Shown here: in pieces, positions 7,988-19,665 of the stretch | How the letters are laid out: every line of letters starts with the position of its first letter | How positions within the stretch are numbered: the first letter of the stretch is position 1 | Assembly (NCBI GenBank): GCA_016213945.1 | Contig: JACQZF010000076.1 | Span: forward strand, 1-34,925 | DNA from: Nitrospirota bacterium | GTDB lineage: Bacteria > Nitrospirota > Thermodesulfovibrionia > UBA6902 | Direction of reading: 5' to 3' | DNA: 34,925 bases | The notes under the pieces: model-generated | What the model was told of the DNA's origin: nothing | Database searches by the model: none | The model's input: only the letters and a program-made list of their open reading frames with translations | Position numbers and translations under genes: made by a program

Positions 7988-8000
7988 AGCAAACATTTGA

Positions 8001-8035
8001 GGGAGAGGGGCCGTTCCCTCTCCCATTTTTATTTT
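8001..8035 (+). terminator. Rho-independent terminator after cytochrome c
   Basis: GGGAGAGGG (8001-8009) pairs with CCCTCTCCC (8016-8024) across a 6-nt loop and is followed by ATTTTTATTTT. This is a textbook terminator that separates the cytochrome gene from the transaldolase gene. Confidence 0.9.
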
Positions 8036-8104
8036 CCAATCAGTCAAGAAGCCGATGAGTTCACTGATGGATATCAAGAATACACTGAAAATGAAGGAGA
8101 CCCG

Positions 8105-8968
8105 ATGAGACCACGTGACCTTAAAACGAAGATATTTTTAGACGGCGGTGATCCCGGCGAGTCAAAGGCTATCATTAACCTTATCGGCTTTCTGGATGGA
8201 CAGACAACAAACCCGACTCTTATTTCAAAAAATCCTGAAGCGCGGGAACGTCTTAAGCGGGGTGATAAGTTCACAGAGGATGAGATATATCACTTTTATA
8301 GACATGTGGTCGGGGAGATATCATCGCTGATTCCTCAAGGGTCAATATCGATAGAAGTGTATGCAGACCTTTCAACAACCGCGGAGCAAATGTTCAAACA
8401 GGGGGAGCAGATGTTTGCATGGATTCCCAATGCGCATGTTAAATTCCCTTCCACAAAGGAGGGTTTGAAGGCAGCGGAGCAGGCGGTTAAAAATAAAATG
8501 CGCGTTAATATGACCCTCTGTTTTACTCAGGAACAGGCAGCAGCCGTATATGCCGCAACATCGGGCGCGAAGAGGGGAGATATATTTGTCTCACCTTTTA
8601 TAGGGCGTCTTGATGACAGGGGAGAAAACGGCATGGCTTTAATTGCCAATATCTTAAAGATGTTTAGTAAGAGCGACGGTCACGTGCTGGTACTGACAGC
8701 AAGTGTAAGAACATTTGGCCATCTGATGTATGCTCTATATCTTGGCTCGGATATAATTACAGCTCCATATAATATTCTGAAGGAATGGGGAGAAAAAGGG
8801 CTTCCGATGCCGACAGATGATTATGTCTATGATTCCGGAAAGTTAAGTGATATCCCATATAAGGATATCGACCTGTCCCGAAACTGGCAGGAGCATGATA
8901 TCAGTCATGATTTGACCATTAAAGGTATAGAGAGGTTTTCTGCGGACTGGAATTCGTTAATAAAATAA
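8105..8968 (+). CDS. tal: Transaldolase family protein
   Basis: This 287-residue TIM-barrel enzyme should transfer a dihydroxyacetone unit between sedoheptulose 7-phosphate and glyceraldehyde 3-phosphate in the non-oxidative pentose phosphate pathway. It opens with KIFLDGGDPGESKAI, then GFLDGQTTNPTLISKNP (the transaldolase TTNP motif), SIEVYADL, VKFPST (containing the likely Schiff-base Lys), NMTLCFTQEQA and VSPFIGRLDDRG. It is longer than fructose-6-phosphate aldolases and shorter than the E. coli TalB class. ATG 8105 is chosen because GGAG lies 5-8 nt upstream and the N-terminus then fits the family; longer reading would cross the terminator. The DUF3179 gene follows 15 nt downstream. RpiA and Gnd of the same pathway are encoded at 19.7-21.4 kb. 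Confidence 0.88.
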   Translation: MRPRDLKTKIFLDGGDPGESKAIINLIGFLDGQTTNPTLISKNPEARERLKRGDKFTEDEIYHFYRHVVGEISSLIPQGSISIEVYADLSTTAEQMFKQGEQMFAWIPNAHVKFPSTKEGLKAAEQAVKNKMRVNMTLCFTQEQAAAVYAATSGAKRGDIFVSPFIGRLDDRGENGMALIANILKMFSKSDGHVLVLTASVRTFGHLMYALYLGSDIITAPYNILKEWGEKGLPMPTDDYVYDSGKLSDIPYKDIDLSRNWQEHDISHDLTIKGIERFSADWNSLIK

Positions 8969-8983
8969 AGGAGGTAAATAACA

Positions 8984-9628
8984 ATGGCGATGATAAAAAG
9001 AATTACGTTTATTGCTGTGTTGATCATAAGTCTTATTGGCTGCACAAGTCAGGTTGCTCCATCCGTTTCCGTCGTTCGGGAAGACGGCAAGACATACATT
9101 GTGGATAAAACCGGATACAAGTGGGATGTCACCCAGGCAGAATCGATCGGATTCAAGCCTGATAAATTTCAGTATGGTATGGGGAAAGACGCGATTCTCC
9201 CTCTCGATGCTTCCGAGCTGAGTGACGACAAAAAAGACGTCCCTGATGATCTCCGCATCATCGGTGTTGAAGAAGGCCCAACTGCACAGGCGTATTCCGT
9301 GCAAAAGCTCCGCAGTCATGAGGTGGCGAACAGCGCCATCGGATCAAAGCCTATAGCTGTAGGCTATTGACCACTTTCAGACCTGGCGGCTGTGTACAGT
9401 CGCGAGCTTGACGGACAGACATTGACGATTGCGCCTGCAGGCTGGACATACAATAACACCTTTGTATTATATGACAAAGAAAGCGGGACCCTCTGGTATC
9501 CTGAAAGAGGCGGACTAAAAGGCATTCAGGGCAAGTATTTCGGACGGGTCCTTACAAAAGTCTCATCCGAAGATATTCGATGGGGGAAATGGCAGAAGAA
9601 ATATCCGGAATCGAAGATCCTGAAATAG
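8984..9628 (+). CDS. DUF3179 lipoprotein, candidate selenoprotein (UGA at codon 129)
   Basis: AAAGGAGG precedes ATG 8984. The N-terminus is a lipoprotein signal (lipobox LIGC near residue 20). The frame continues through RIIGVEEGPTAQAY, HEVANSAIG and SKPIAVGY, meets TGA at 9368-9370, and continues in the same frame with PLSDLAAVYSRELDG, LYDKESGTLWYPERG and WGKWQKKYPESKIL to a TAA, 214 residues in all. Both halves align end to end with DUF3179, whose hallmark is a YCPLC motif. Here the first Cys is the UGA codon and the second is Ser (Y-U-P-L-S). A SECIS-like hairpin follows with the same geometry as in the glutaredoxin gene. Selenocysteine is therefore the best reading; a nonsense mutation is the alternative. 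The function of DUF3179 is unknown; surface redox chemistry is my inference. Confidence 0.8.
9371..9403 (+). promoter_or_regulatory. Putative bacterial SECIS of the DUF3179 gene
   Basis: Fifteen nt separate the UGA from GCGGCTG (9386-9392), which pairs with CAGTCGC (9397-9403; one G-U pair) around the loop TGTA. The loop has G at its second position followed by U. The G is 24 nt from the UGA, identical to the glutaredoxin element, while the stem sequences are unrelated. Confidence 0.65.
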
Positions 9629-15291: not shown

Positions 15292-18200
15292 ATGGAAAAG
15301 GCAACGGACATCTGCTATCTTGACTACCTGGTCGGCACTCTCGCCACAGCCTATAAAGGTTTGATCACCTCCCTTGTTGCAAGGGATTTCTGCATAACCG
15401 TCAAAGACAATACTACAGAATTCAAGGGGACCATCATTTCAATTCCTGAAGGTAAATATGTCGTCTGTCTTATGCGGGGCGGCATTGAAATCACAAGGGA
15501 TGAGATCAGGGAAGGTTTCTTCAGGCTCACCGCTGACTTTGCGCTCATCGATGCAGCAAAGAACCTTCAGCTTGATATTATCCAGAATGGCAGACACATA
15601 GGGACCTTTCTTCTGAAGAAAGAGATCCAGGGAGGGATATTTGCTTCTGCTATTGAAGTGTCTCAGGACCTCCAGGGCATCAGACTAAGGGCGCTCGTCG
15701 ACTCTGTAAAGGAATGGGAGGGTATACGGAAGGCTGCCGAGGGGATTATCTCTCATATACTGTCAACAAAAAAAGACTGGCAGTCGCTGTCGGAAAATAT
15801 AAACAGCTTTTCGAAAGATCTGTTCTGGGCTGTCAGAGATGCGTTTTATCTCTGGCATTATGTCCTTATCCGGTTCTCTCATAGGGCTTACGAGAATGTG
15901 GAAGAGGAATCAAAGGCAAGGGTCTTATCAAATATTCTGTCACTTATCGAACTGCCTCTTGAGAAGGAAACGGATACGCCGAAGCTGGCATTTTTTGCCG
16001 CAACATGGATACGGGCGATCAGCGATTCCAGAATAGATTTTTCCCGGCAGCCCAGGCATGTCCTCAGAATACTGGGACAGATCAGCAAGAGGTTGCCCGG
16101 GATTGATATTAAGCCGGTCATAAAAGCTTTTCTTATGTCCTTAAAAGAAAAAGCGAGGTCTGTTTGTGTCCTGAAAATCAGACTCTTTGACGTCCTCGGA
16201 GATGACCTGTCCAAAGAGGACCTTTCGCCGCTCACTAAATATTCTGAGGAAGCAAGAAACTTTTTTGTGAATTCTATTGATGTGATTGAGAAAAGAGTTG
16301 AAGACGGAGCAGAAAGTTCTGTGCTTCTTGATGACATGAGGTCTCTTGATGTCCGGCTTCTTGACCGTGCGGATATGGTCACCGTTTTTTTTGACACGCT
16401 TACCACTAATATCAAATTGATAAGCGACGGGAATATGGCAGCCGCTCTGACAGAATTGCCGGACATTAACAATGATCTGAGTGTTGATGCGCGTCGCATC
16501 GTAATGATGAATATAACGGCGCTTCTCAAAACCCTGCTGACAGAAAAAAGGAGCGATGCCTGCAGAGCGATACTTGAGATGATAGGGGTATCGACGGTAA
16601 GCGATGACATTCTTCTCAACCATGAGATGGCGGGTCCCATACTTAAAAGCAATGATGAAGAGCTCATTGTCTTATATAAGAAACTGCTCACGGGAATTAT
16701 TGTGCCTCCGCCAAAAGTGTCAGGTCCGTCCGGGGACACCTGGGCGGAAATTGTGGACCCCGATCATTTAAGGAGACTCTCCGGGTTTTTGGGAGTTATC
16801 TCTGCGGGCGGGGAGCAATTTTCAGAGATTCTGGCGCACCTGGTCAGTAATCTTTTCATAAGCGGGGTGTGGATGCCCGATGACCGGCTCTTCCAGCGTG
16901 ATATATCGTTGTATCTGAATTCGGGAGCGCTGAAGAAAAACTTTCTCCTTCAGTATCTGCTTTTGAAAAAAATCCCTTCATATTTCAGTGAGGTAGGCGC
17001 ATCCGGCAGGCTCCGCGAGCTTACAACCGATATCGATTCATGGGGCAATGATACGGTCCTCTATTTTCTGAGAAAACAGGTGCATGTCAATGCGAGCAGT
17101 AATAATATACGACTTATTGAACAGATCATCTCTGCATGGCTGAGGAATGACCTTTCGCTTCTGGAGGAATGGGCGCCCGGGGACATCGTCTCAGGTATGA
17201 AAAAGTTCAATCTTGAAAAATATTCCATGGCAATGAGACGTCTGTTTAAGAGTCTTGACGTAATCAGTGGAGACATTATTCAGTTTGAAAAGCTTCTTGA
17301 ATTTAATGATGAGGACCTTGGCCGGGCTGCTGAATCTATTGACACGACTGAAGAGGTACGTAAAAAGATCACTCTCCTTTGCAGGATATACAGGGAAGTC
17401 AGAGTGAAGTATAGTGCCCAGGGAATAAGAACGGAACGGAATGTCGATCTGAAGACCGAATTTACAGAGACCCTTGAGAAGCTCCGTCAACTAAAGACAA
17501 TTTACACCTCGCTTGAAAAAACCGAAGCCCACGAATCTCTTTATTTTAAACGGCACATCGCCTTCGGGATACCCTCGGTCATCGGTTCATACCATGAGCC
17601 GAAATTCGACGCCCTTGCAGAGACGTTCAGACTTGAAGAGCAGGTGCGGTTACTTCTTGAGGACATGATATTGCAGGTGGAGAAGGCAGGGGAGGAAATT
17701 GATCAAGGGACACTTCAGGCATGGACCAGTTGCCTTGAGTGCATTCACGAACTTTTCAATCTCCATGATCTTGGGAATTTTCATGCAAGCGAAGCGCTTG
17801 CCATCTTAAAAACCAACAGCCTGTATCTCTCCCAGGTTAATGACCTGCTCAAGATATGGCAGAAAGAGCTCACCTGGATGGTTGAACTCTGCTACAGGAC
17901 GTTCCATAAACCTTTGACTGATCTGCTCATGAAGTTTCCCCGGCAAGACCTTCCTGATTTTCTGCTGAGGCTTGGAGCGGACGATGAGAGCTTTATTGAT
18001 AAAGTGGTCGATATCACTATCCGCAGTATCATCAGCAGTATCACAGGATTTGAGGAGCTTGACAGATTGTTGAACAGCCTCATAAAAAGGCTTTCATCCC
18101 TTGTCGAATCGGGCAAGGACTTCAGAATGCCTGACGCCGGGACCAGTGAGCGTAAAAAGTGGTTTCTGCTTTCTGATCTTTCGCCTGCAAAGGCTTCCTG

Positions 18201-19665
18201 TCTTGCCCCACTGCTCGGAAGCAAGGCAAAAAATCTTGTCTATCTCAGGGAAAGGGGCATCCTGGTCCCTTATGGAACTATCTTTCCTTCTGATATCACA
18301 GCAGATTATCAGGACCATACATCAAGTCCGGAATTCAGACTCGCCCTCCGTGAGGCGGTCGGCGCAATTGAGCGTAATACAGGGTTGTCATTTGGAAGCA
18401 GGACATCACCCCTTTTTCTTGCTGTCAGAAGCGGATCATATATATCAATGCCCGGCATCCTCTCTTCGATCCTCTACTGCGGCATGAACCGTAATACTAT
18501 TGAAGGTTTTATTGATGCTACAGGCGATACGTGGATTGCCTGTGATTCATATCGGAGGTTCATCGAGCATTATGCCGAAGTCGCGCTTGGGGTTGAAGCC
18601 TCCATGTTCGGGCAGATTCAAAAGGAGATACTGGAGCGTAACAACGCGAAAGAACTTCAGCAACTCGATACTATGGGCATGAAAGAAATCGTTGATCGCT
18701 ATTTGGGCCGTCTTGAAGAAAGCGGGCAGCGGATACCTGATGATCCCTACGAACAATTAGAGCAGTCTGTCCGGGCGATCTACCGGTCCTGGTTCTCCGG
18801 CAGGTCAGTCCAGTTCCGGAAGTCCATGTCTGTTTCGGAGTATTGGGGAACATCGGTGACACTTATGAATATGATTTACGGGAACCGGCTGGGATCAGGG
18901 GCCTCGGTCTTTTTCACAAGGATACCGGTATCTTTCAAGAAGGGCATTTACGGAGATATACGGGAGGCCGGGACCGGAGATGATCTGGTGTATGGGCGAT
19001 TCACAAACCGTGCGCTTTCCCGGCTTCAGACCGCAAACGGAGACAGCCTTGAAGATCGGGACCCGGACCTCTACCGCGCATATAGCGAGTTGGCATTGAA
19101 AGTTGAAGAAGCCATGGGACACCTTCCTCAAGAGGTTGAATCAGCATATGTAGTGGAAGGGGGGAAGAGACTGATCTATATTCTACAGACAAAGAGAATG
19201 GAGTTCCGCAGCGGATCATCAGAAAGATTCCATGATTCATGCCGGATGGAATCATCGATTATCGGTCGCGGGATCGGCGTCCACGGAGGGGCCCTCAGCG
19301 GCATCGCAACGTTTACTGCGTCCCCGGACCATATCAGGAAGTTGGAAGAAAACTCCCGGCAGCCGGTCATCCTTCTCCGGAGGGAGACGAGCACCGATGA
19401 TGTATCAGTTATGTCTGAAATTAAAGGGACCATTACTGCCGTCGGCGGGGCCACATCACATGCAGCCATACTCTCACAAAAATTCAATATTACCGCTGTG
19501 GTCGGCTGCGCTGATATGAAGATAATGGCGGATGCTCAGGGCATGCCTTATGCGATCATAGGGACCGATGAAATAAGGGAAGGAACGTCTATAAGTATTG
19601 ACGGTTCAACAGGGCTTGTATATTCAGGCAAGTGTCTTCTGACAGTGAGGGACAAGCGTTATTAA
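15292..19665 (+). CDS. Large PPDK/PEP-synthase-like dikinase with a ~950-residue N-terminal extension
   Basis: The 1457-residue product ends in two dikinase modules. An ATP-binding PPDK_N-like domain begins near residue 970 (LLGSKAKNLVYLRERGILVP), with VRSGSYISMPGILSSILYCG near 1045 and DSYRRFIEHYAEVALGV near 1085. A swivelling phosphohistidine domain carries GGATSHAAIL, with the phospho-accepting His at residue 1390. The C-terminal PEP/pyruvate TIM barrel of true PPDK or PEP synthase is missing; the protein stops right after the His domain. The first 950 or so residues are mostly helical and I do not recognise them. The acceptor is therefore unknown; a glucan or sugar dikinase-like role would fit the neighbouring glucosidase and pentose phosphate genes, but this is inference. 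Confidence 0.8.
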   Translation: MEKATDICYLDYLVGTLATAYKGLITSLVARDFCITVKDNTTEFKGTIISIPEGKYVVCLMRGGIEITRDEIREGFFRLTADFALIDAAKNLQLDIIQNGRHIGTFLLKKEIQGGIFASAIEVSQDLQGIRLRALVDSVKEWEGIRKAAEGIISHILSTKKDWQSLSENINSFSKDLFWAVRDAFYLWHYVLIRFSHRAYENVEEESKARVLSNILSLIELPLEKETDTPKLAFFAATWIRAISDSRIDFSRQPRHVLRILGQISKRLPGIDIKPVIKAFLMSLKEKARSVCVLKIRLFDVLGDDLSKEDLSPLTKYSEEARNFFVNSIDVIEKRVEDGAESSVLLDDMRSLDVRLLDRADMVTVFFDTLTTNIKLISDGNMAAALTELPDINNDLSVDARRIVMMNITALLKTLLTEKRSDACRAILEMIGVSTVSDDILLNHEMAGPILKSNDEELIVLYKKLLTGIIVPPPKVSGPSGDTWAEIVDPDHLRRLSGFLGVISAGGEQFSEILAHLVSNLFISGVWMPDDRLFQRDISLYLNSGALKKNFLLQYLLLKKIPSYFSEVGASGRLRELTTDIDSWGNDTVLYFLRKQVHVNASSNNIRLIEQIISAWLRNDLSLLEEWAPGDIVSGMKKFNLEKYSMAMRRLFKSLDVISGDIIQFEKLLEFNDEDLGRAAESIDTTEEVRKKITLLCRIYREVRVKYSAQGIRTERNVDLKTEFTETLEKLRQLKTIYTSLEKTEAHESLYFKRHIAFGIPSVIGSYHEPKFDALAETFRLEEQVRLLLEDMILQVEKAGEEIDQGTLQAWTSCLECIHELFNLHDLGNFHASEALAILKTNSLYLSQVNDLLKIWQKELTWMVELCYRTFHKPLTDLLMKFPRQDLPDFLLRLGADDESFIDKVVDITIRSIISSITGFEELDRLLNSLIKRLSSLVESGKDFRMPDAGTSERKKWFLLSDLSPAKASCLAPLLGSKAKNLVYLRERGILVPYGTIFPSDITADYQDHTSSPEFRLALREAVGAIERNTGLSFGSRTSPLFLAVRSGSYISMPGILSSILYCGMNRNTIEGFIDATGDTWIACDSYRRFIEHYAEVALGVEASMFGQIQKEILERNNAKELQQLDTMGMKEIVDRYLGRLEESGQRIPDDPYEQLEQSVRAIYRSWFSGRSVQFRKSMSVSEYWGTSVTLMNMIYGNRLGSGASVFFTRIPVSFKKGIYGDIREAGTGDDLVYGRFTNRALSRLQTANGDSLEDRDPDLYRAYSELALKVEEAMGHLPQEVESAYVVEGGKRLIYILQTKRMEFRSGSSERFHDSCRMESSIIGRGIGVHGGALSGIATFTASPDHIRKLEENSRQPVILLRRETSTDDVSVMSEIKGTITAVGGATSHAAILSQKFNITAVVGCADMKIMADAQGMPYAIIGTDEIREGTSISIDGSTGLVYSGKCLLTVRDKRY

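Follow-up and report, generated by a model that had tools for sequence, protein, structure and literature searches.

The window, by which we mean the entire stretch of 34,925 nucleotides analysed here (Nitrospirota bacterium, contig JACQZF010000076.1), carries on its forward strand a gene of the DUF3179 family at 8984..9628. The reading frame starts with ATG at 8984, ends with TAG at 9626-9628 and specifies 214 residues when an in-frame TGA at 9368..9370 is read through. Direct reading places a GGAGG ribosome-binding site at 8970..8974 (+), 9 nt 5′ of the ATG. The first codons (8984..9043, +) encode a lipoprotein signal peptide, read by eye, with the lipobox LIGC at residues 17-20; the lipobox cysteine, Cys20, is retained across nearly all full-length short homologues. 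We infer that the product is secreted and carries a lipid anchor, and would thus be a membrane-anchored periplasmic lipoprotein.

Directly upstream lies a transaldolase/FSA-like gene (7997..8968, +; Pfam TAL_FSA, E 2.8e-45), which is possibly co-transcribed with the DUF3179 gene. The locus of the nearest relative (L031, from a SURF_11 Nitrospiraceae MAG) retains only the end of this transaldolase gene, a remnant at L031 4694-4987 that blastn aligns with window positions 8675-8968. Among 26 DUF3179 loci, no neighbour recurs widely except members of the DUF3179 family itself, and no pathway is indicated; Dus, NamZ and PEGA/Omp28 genes are common to three or four Calditrichota loci. Elsewhere in the window, an ORF of 1457 residues (15292-19665) contains PPDK_N and PEP-utilising domains in its C-terminal part only, its approximately 1000 N-terminal residues having no Pfam match.

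The TGA is the only interruption of the 214-residue frame, and the register is the same on both sides. An earlier sequence-only reading had described precisely this arrangement, two frames in one register split only by the TGA, and its coordinates proved exact. The read-through protein matches PF11376 (Pfam) with 102.9 bits (gathering score 27, E = 2.9e-29). Profile positions 11-64 are matched by the piece 5′ of the TGA and positions 66-148 by the piece 3′ of it, which places the TGA at model position 65, the first cysteine of the YCPLC motif. Translation, alignment and the two Pfam halves thus agree on this residue, designated U129. The family's second cysteine is occupied by Ser132 (codon TCA, 9377..9379, +), so that CPLC becomes UPLS; the replacement of YCPLC by Y-U-P-L-S, proposed from the sequence, is borne out by translation and alignment. 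The same reading had taken each frame for one half of DUF3179. The frames do match consecutive parts of the profile, but taken together they do not extend beyond the N-terminal half of the 292-position model: the read-through match spans profile positions 12-148, and the two-domain architecture of the full model is absent, because the window protein is a short, single-domain form. It is encoded by the only DUF3179 gene in its genome, and no NCBIfam model matches it.

AlphaFold2 predicts a mostly beta structure for the short read-through protein (pLDDT 94.5, pTM 0.85) as well as for the two-domain form (pLDDT 95.1, pTM 0.91). Searching the PDB with both models returned no fold at E 0.001 (best E 0.46 and 0.15, TM <0.25), and a sequence-profile search of the PDB likewise gave no match at E 0.001. 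The sole good structural match is an uncharacterised giant-virus protein, Indivirus ILV1 (BFVD A0A1V0SD44), with E 4.6e-6 and TM 0.53.

The in-frame TGA is a recurrent feature of the short form. Among 101 near genomes, all ten that bear DUF3179 (the window's own counted) have it, and a search of the phylum added one more TGA-containing short form, in genome G158, which brings the short Nitrospirota homologues with TGA to 11 of 11. Across 396 genomes of the phylum, most DUF3179 genes encode two-domain Cys forms and have no in-frame stop. In Calditrichota, short and two-domain Sec forms are both common, often in tandem and often adjoining Cys paralogues. The sequence-only reading had suggested counting U versus C at this site across the family: in all aligned members, sampled mainly from Nitrospirota and Calditrichota with Desulfobacterota left out, 39 have Sec at the site and 47 have Cys. 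The short forms of both phyla constitute a single group in the tree (SH-aLRT 99), in which 28 of 29 members have Sec, one has Ser (a tandem copy) and none has Cys. The second cysteine, at position +3 relative to Sec/Cys, is present in 4/39 Sec forms versus 39/47 Cys forms (Fisher p 8e-12, a value that ignores kinship). Thr stands at +3 in 7/47 Cys forms, while the Sec forms without Cys there have A, V, E, I, Q, S or R; all seven occur in the short clade, and long Sec forms have A or C. Near the motif, Glu113 is almost invariant in the alignment; three Sec forms lack His112, and both Ser forms have it.

Several individual members depart from the general pattern. The tandem short copy L032:4288-4950 (G416:C6:314919-315296) reads YSGFFE, with Ser and neither Cys nor Sec; it has a long branch, lies beside two Sec copies and is possibly a non-catalytic paralogue. 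In the same genome, L118:4032-4703 (G416:C21) encodes a divergent DUF3179-like protein with FUVVC, i.e. Sec without the usual Pro-Leu. A Nitrospirota two-domain Sec protein (L109:3936-4835, G311), from the class to which the window also belongs, reads WUPLAF and is found near exosortase-like and methyltransferase genes. Lastly, a Cys-form gene (L051, G319:C58:620243-621016) is interrupted by an in-frame TGA where Trp is conserved (TESLUSQ in place of TESLWSQ); this is most likely a point mutation or a sequencing error and not Sec.

A SECIS-like hairpin lies 22 nt 3′ of the UGA at 9386..9403 (+), where the sequence-only reading had noted a hairpin with a UGUA loop. Its 7-bp stem (9386-9392/9397-9403, GCGGCUG/CAGCCGC) closes the apical loop UGUA (9393-9396). 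Stem, loop and spacing are conserved in 11/11 Nitrospirota short forms with 100% pairing, and the codons GCG GCT GTG TAC are invariant among them. The 16 Calditrichota short forms have a bigger loop, CCGUGUA, on a 5-bp stem that is 95% paired. In this helix one column pair covaries (A-U, G-C, G-U), although 66/500 shuffles score equally high; in the Nitrospirota helix covariation is almost nil because the helix hardly varies. The GTG TAC of the loop region is retained in nearly all two-domain Sec forms and is missing from Cys forms. Mean z values for the hairpin region are -3.64 in the 11 Nitrospirota sequences, -1.16 and -1.07 in the other two Sec groups and -0.54 in the Cys homologues, in which the hairpin is weak or absent; the window sequence alone gives a modest -1.56. 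The putative signal is thus strong in Nitrospirota and weaker by energy in the other Sec groups, some Calditrichota and long Sec forms having a weaker stem; in these groups it rests on sequence conservation. A simple bSECIS rule separates Sec from Cys forms poorly, as 23/38 Cys sequences pass some hairpin test, and the argument therefore relies on the fixed loop, its fixed place and the invariant codons. Like canonical bacterial SECIS elements of the E. coli fdhF type, the window hairpin is located within the coding sequence, presents its loop 22 nt past the UGA and has a G in the first two loop bases. Unlike them, it matches no SECIS family in Rfam, at gathering or permissive thresholds, and its UGUA loop is specific to this family.

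The genome also encodes the components needed for selenocysteine insertion. On contig C18, SelA (625.8 bits), SelB (360.7 bits) and a tRNA-Sec (73.9 bits, anticodon TCA) are found side by side. Contig C91 carries SelD (GGUAAKLGP) and the formate dehydrogenase FdhA (VUHAPTV), both with TGA at textbook Sec sites. With the window's own genome excluded, SelB is present in 23/24 sampled genomes with a Sec form versus 1/24 with Cys forms only; the sole Sec-form genome without SelB, G027, is a 640-contig assembly. The sequence-only reading had named the search for SelB as a check and the absence of Sec machinery as grounds for abandoning its proposal, and both outcomes speak for the proposal.

These observations lead us to conclude, with high confidence, that TGA 9368-9370 is a selenocysteine codon at the conserved cysteine of the family. 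The case combines the homologues, the SECIS-like hairpin, the complete Sec operon, the other Sec genes of the genome, the co-occurrence with SelB and purifying selection on both sides of the codon. Compared with the nearest relative (L031, protein 86% identical), dN/dS is 0.089 before the UGA and 0.059 after it, which indicates that the half 3′ of the UGA is under equal purifying selection. As the source is a MAG assembly and a standard stop breaks the frame, one might suspect an error of sequencing, which the sequence-only reading had also named as grounds for abandoning its proposal, or genuine termination in a gene undergoing decay. Either is nevertheless highly improbable: the TGA occupies the identical column in independent genomes, hence independent assemblies, from two phyla, selection persists 3′ of it, and Sec machinery is present. 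The open frame past the TGA would equally suit a host that reads this codon as Trp or generally reads through it. This we regard as next to impossible, given that 5/14 annotated genes in the window terminate with TGA and that the residue found at this position in homologues is Cys and not Trp.

For the selenocysteine protein, the following scheme can be proposed. SelB and tRNA-Sec would decode the UGA as Sec under the direction of the hairpin 22 nt downstream, and U129 takes the place of the first cysteine in the CPLC of the two-domain relatives. Cys relatives mostly keep a CxxC pair in which the second cysteine could resolve the first. As the second cysteine is lost in the Sec form, the selenol would act alone and an outside thiol would be needed to reset the oxidised Sec. 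One-selenol redox catalysis, either in the periplasm or at the outer face of the cytoplasmic membrane, could then act on candidate substrates such as a peroxide, a sulfenate or a similar compound. Single-selenol periplasmic redox chemistry is, on these sequence-based grounds, the most likely function, in our estimation somewhat better than an even guess. His112 would be the natural partner of U129, but in view of its absence from three Sec forms and its retention in both Ser forms we do not regard a simple Sec-His pair as established.

Alternatively, Sec129 may serve as a ligand for a metal or metalloid (e.g. copper, mercury, arsenic) and not as a redox catalyst. The conserved His112, Glu113 and Asp164 near the Cys/Sec motif, the lipoprotein location and the CxxC of the Cys forms, a common metal motif, are all compatible with such a site. 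However, retention of the second cysteine in so few Sec forms would mean that one ligand had been removed, and metal genes do not adjoin the gene at the loci examined. Redox chemistry is favoured because the Sec forms dispense with the second cysteine, a loss that is harder to explain for a ligand; a metal site is accordingly rather unlikely in our view.

Selenium in DUF3179 is already known. Two reviews (PMC9312934, PMC13188914) include DUF3179 in their tables of selenoprotein families, give its motif as UxxC/T and cite a 2007 study of Olavius algarvensis symbionts; in NCBI, several proteins of haloarchaea bear the name 'DUF3179 domain-containing (seleno)protein'. The suggestion in the sequence-only reading that UGA-containing members had been noted before was therefore correct, and the window gene is a further member of a known selenoprotein family. 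The passages on DUF3179 found in the two reviews contain no mention of Calditrichota or of a Nitrospirota DUF3179 member. The literature searched, as far as its text was accessible, gives no function for DUF3179 and otherwise names it only in the characterisation of Idiomarina isolates. The window protein resembles the published selenoproteins in belonging to PF11376 and in having Sec at the same motif, but with Ser at Sec+3 (UxxS) it departs from UxxC/T. Compared through this listed motif alone, the differences are S, A, Q, V, I, E or R at +3, the short one-domain clade and its occurrence in Nitrospirota and Calditrichota. With the two-domain YCPLCG proteins of Nitrospirota, Calditrichota and haloarchaea it shares a homologous domain and the conserved HE, SG, D and W positions. 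In contrast to the short form, these proteins have a Cys pair in place of the lone Sec and no SECIS; they possess an extra C-terminal repeat without the Cys and lack the short form's N-terminal extension. As far as we have checked, the near-obligate-Sec short clade and its lost second cysteine are not described in the literature searched. It is conceivable, though we advance it only tentatively, that this clade represents a lone-selenol enzyme with a fold lacking a solved counterpart, almost no Cys members and a new periplasmic reaction.

The analysis clarifies a recoded gene whose DUF3179 product would be truncated by standard annotation. Sec alone and a Cys pair occur within one family, with a matching on/off pattern of SelB, and this offers a clean natural comparison. 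With a fold that is predicted confidently and matches no PDB entry, DUF3179 is a good structural target. Finally, the role of the conserved cysteine in this widespread uncharacterised family becomes testable by mutation of a single residue.
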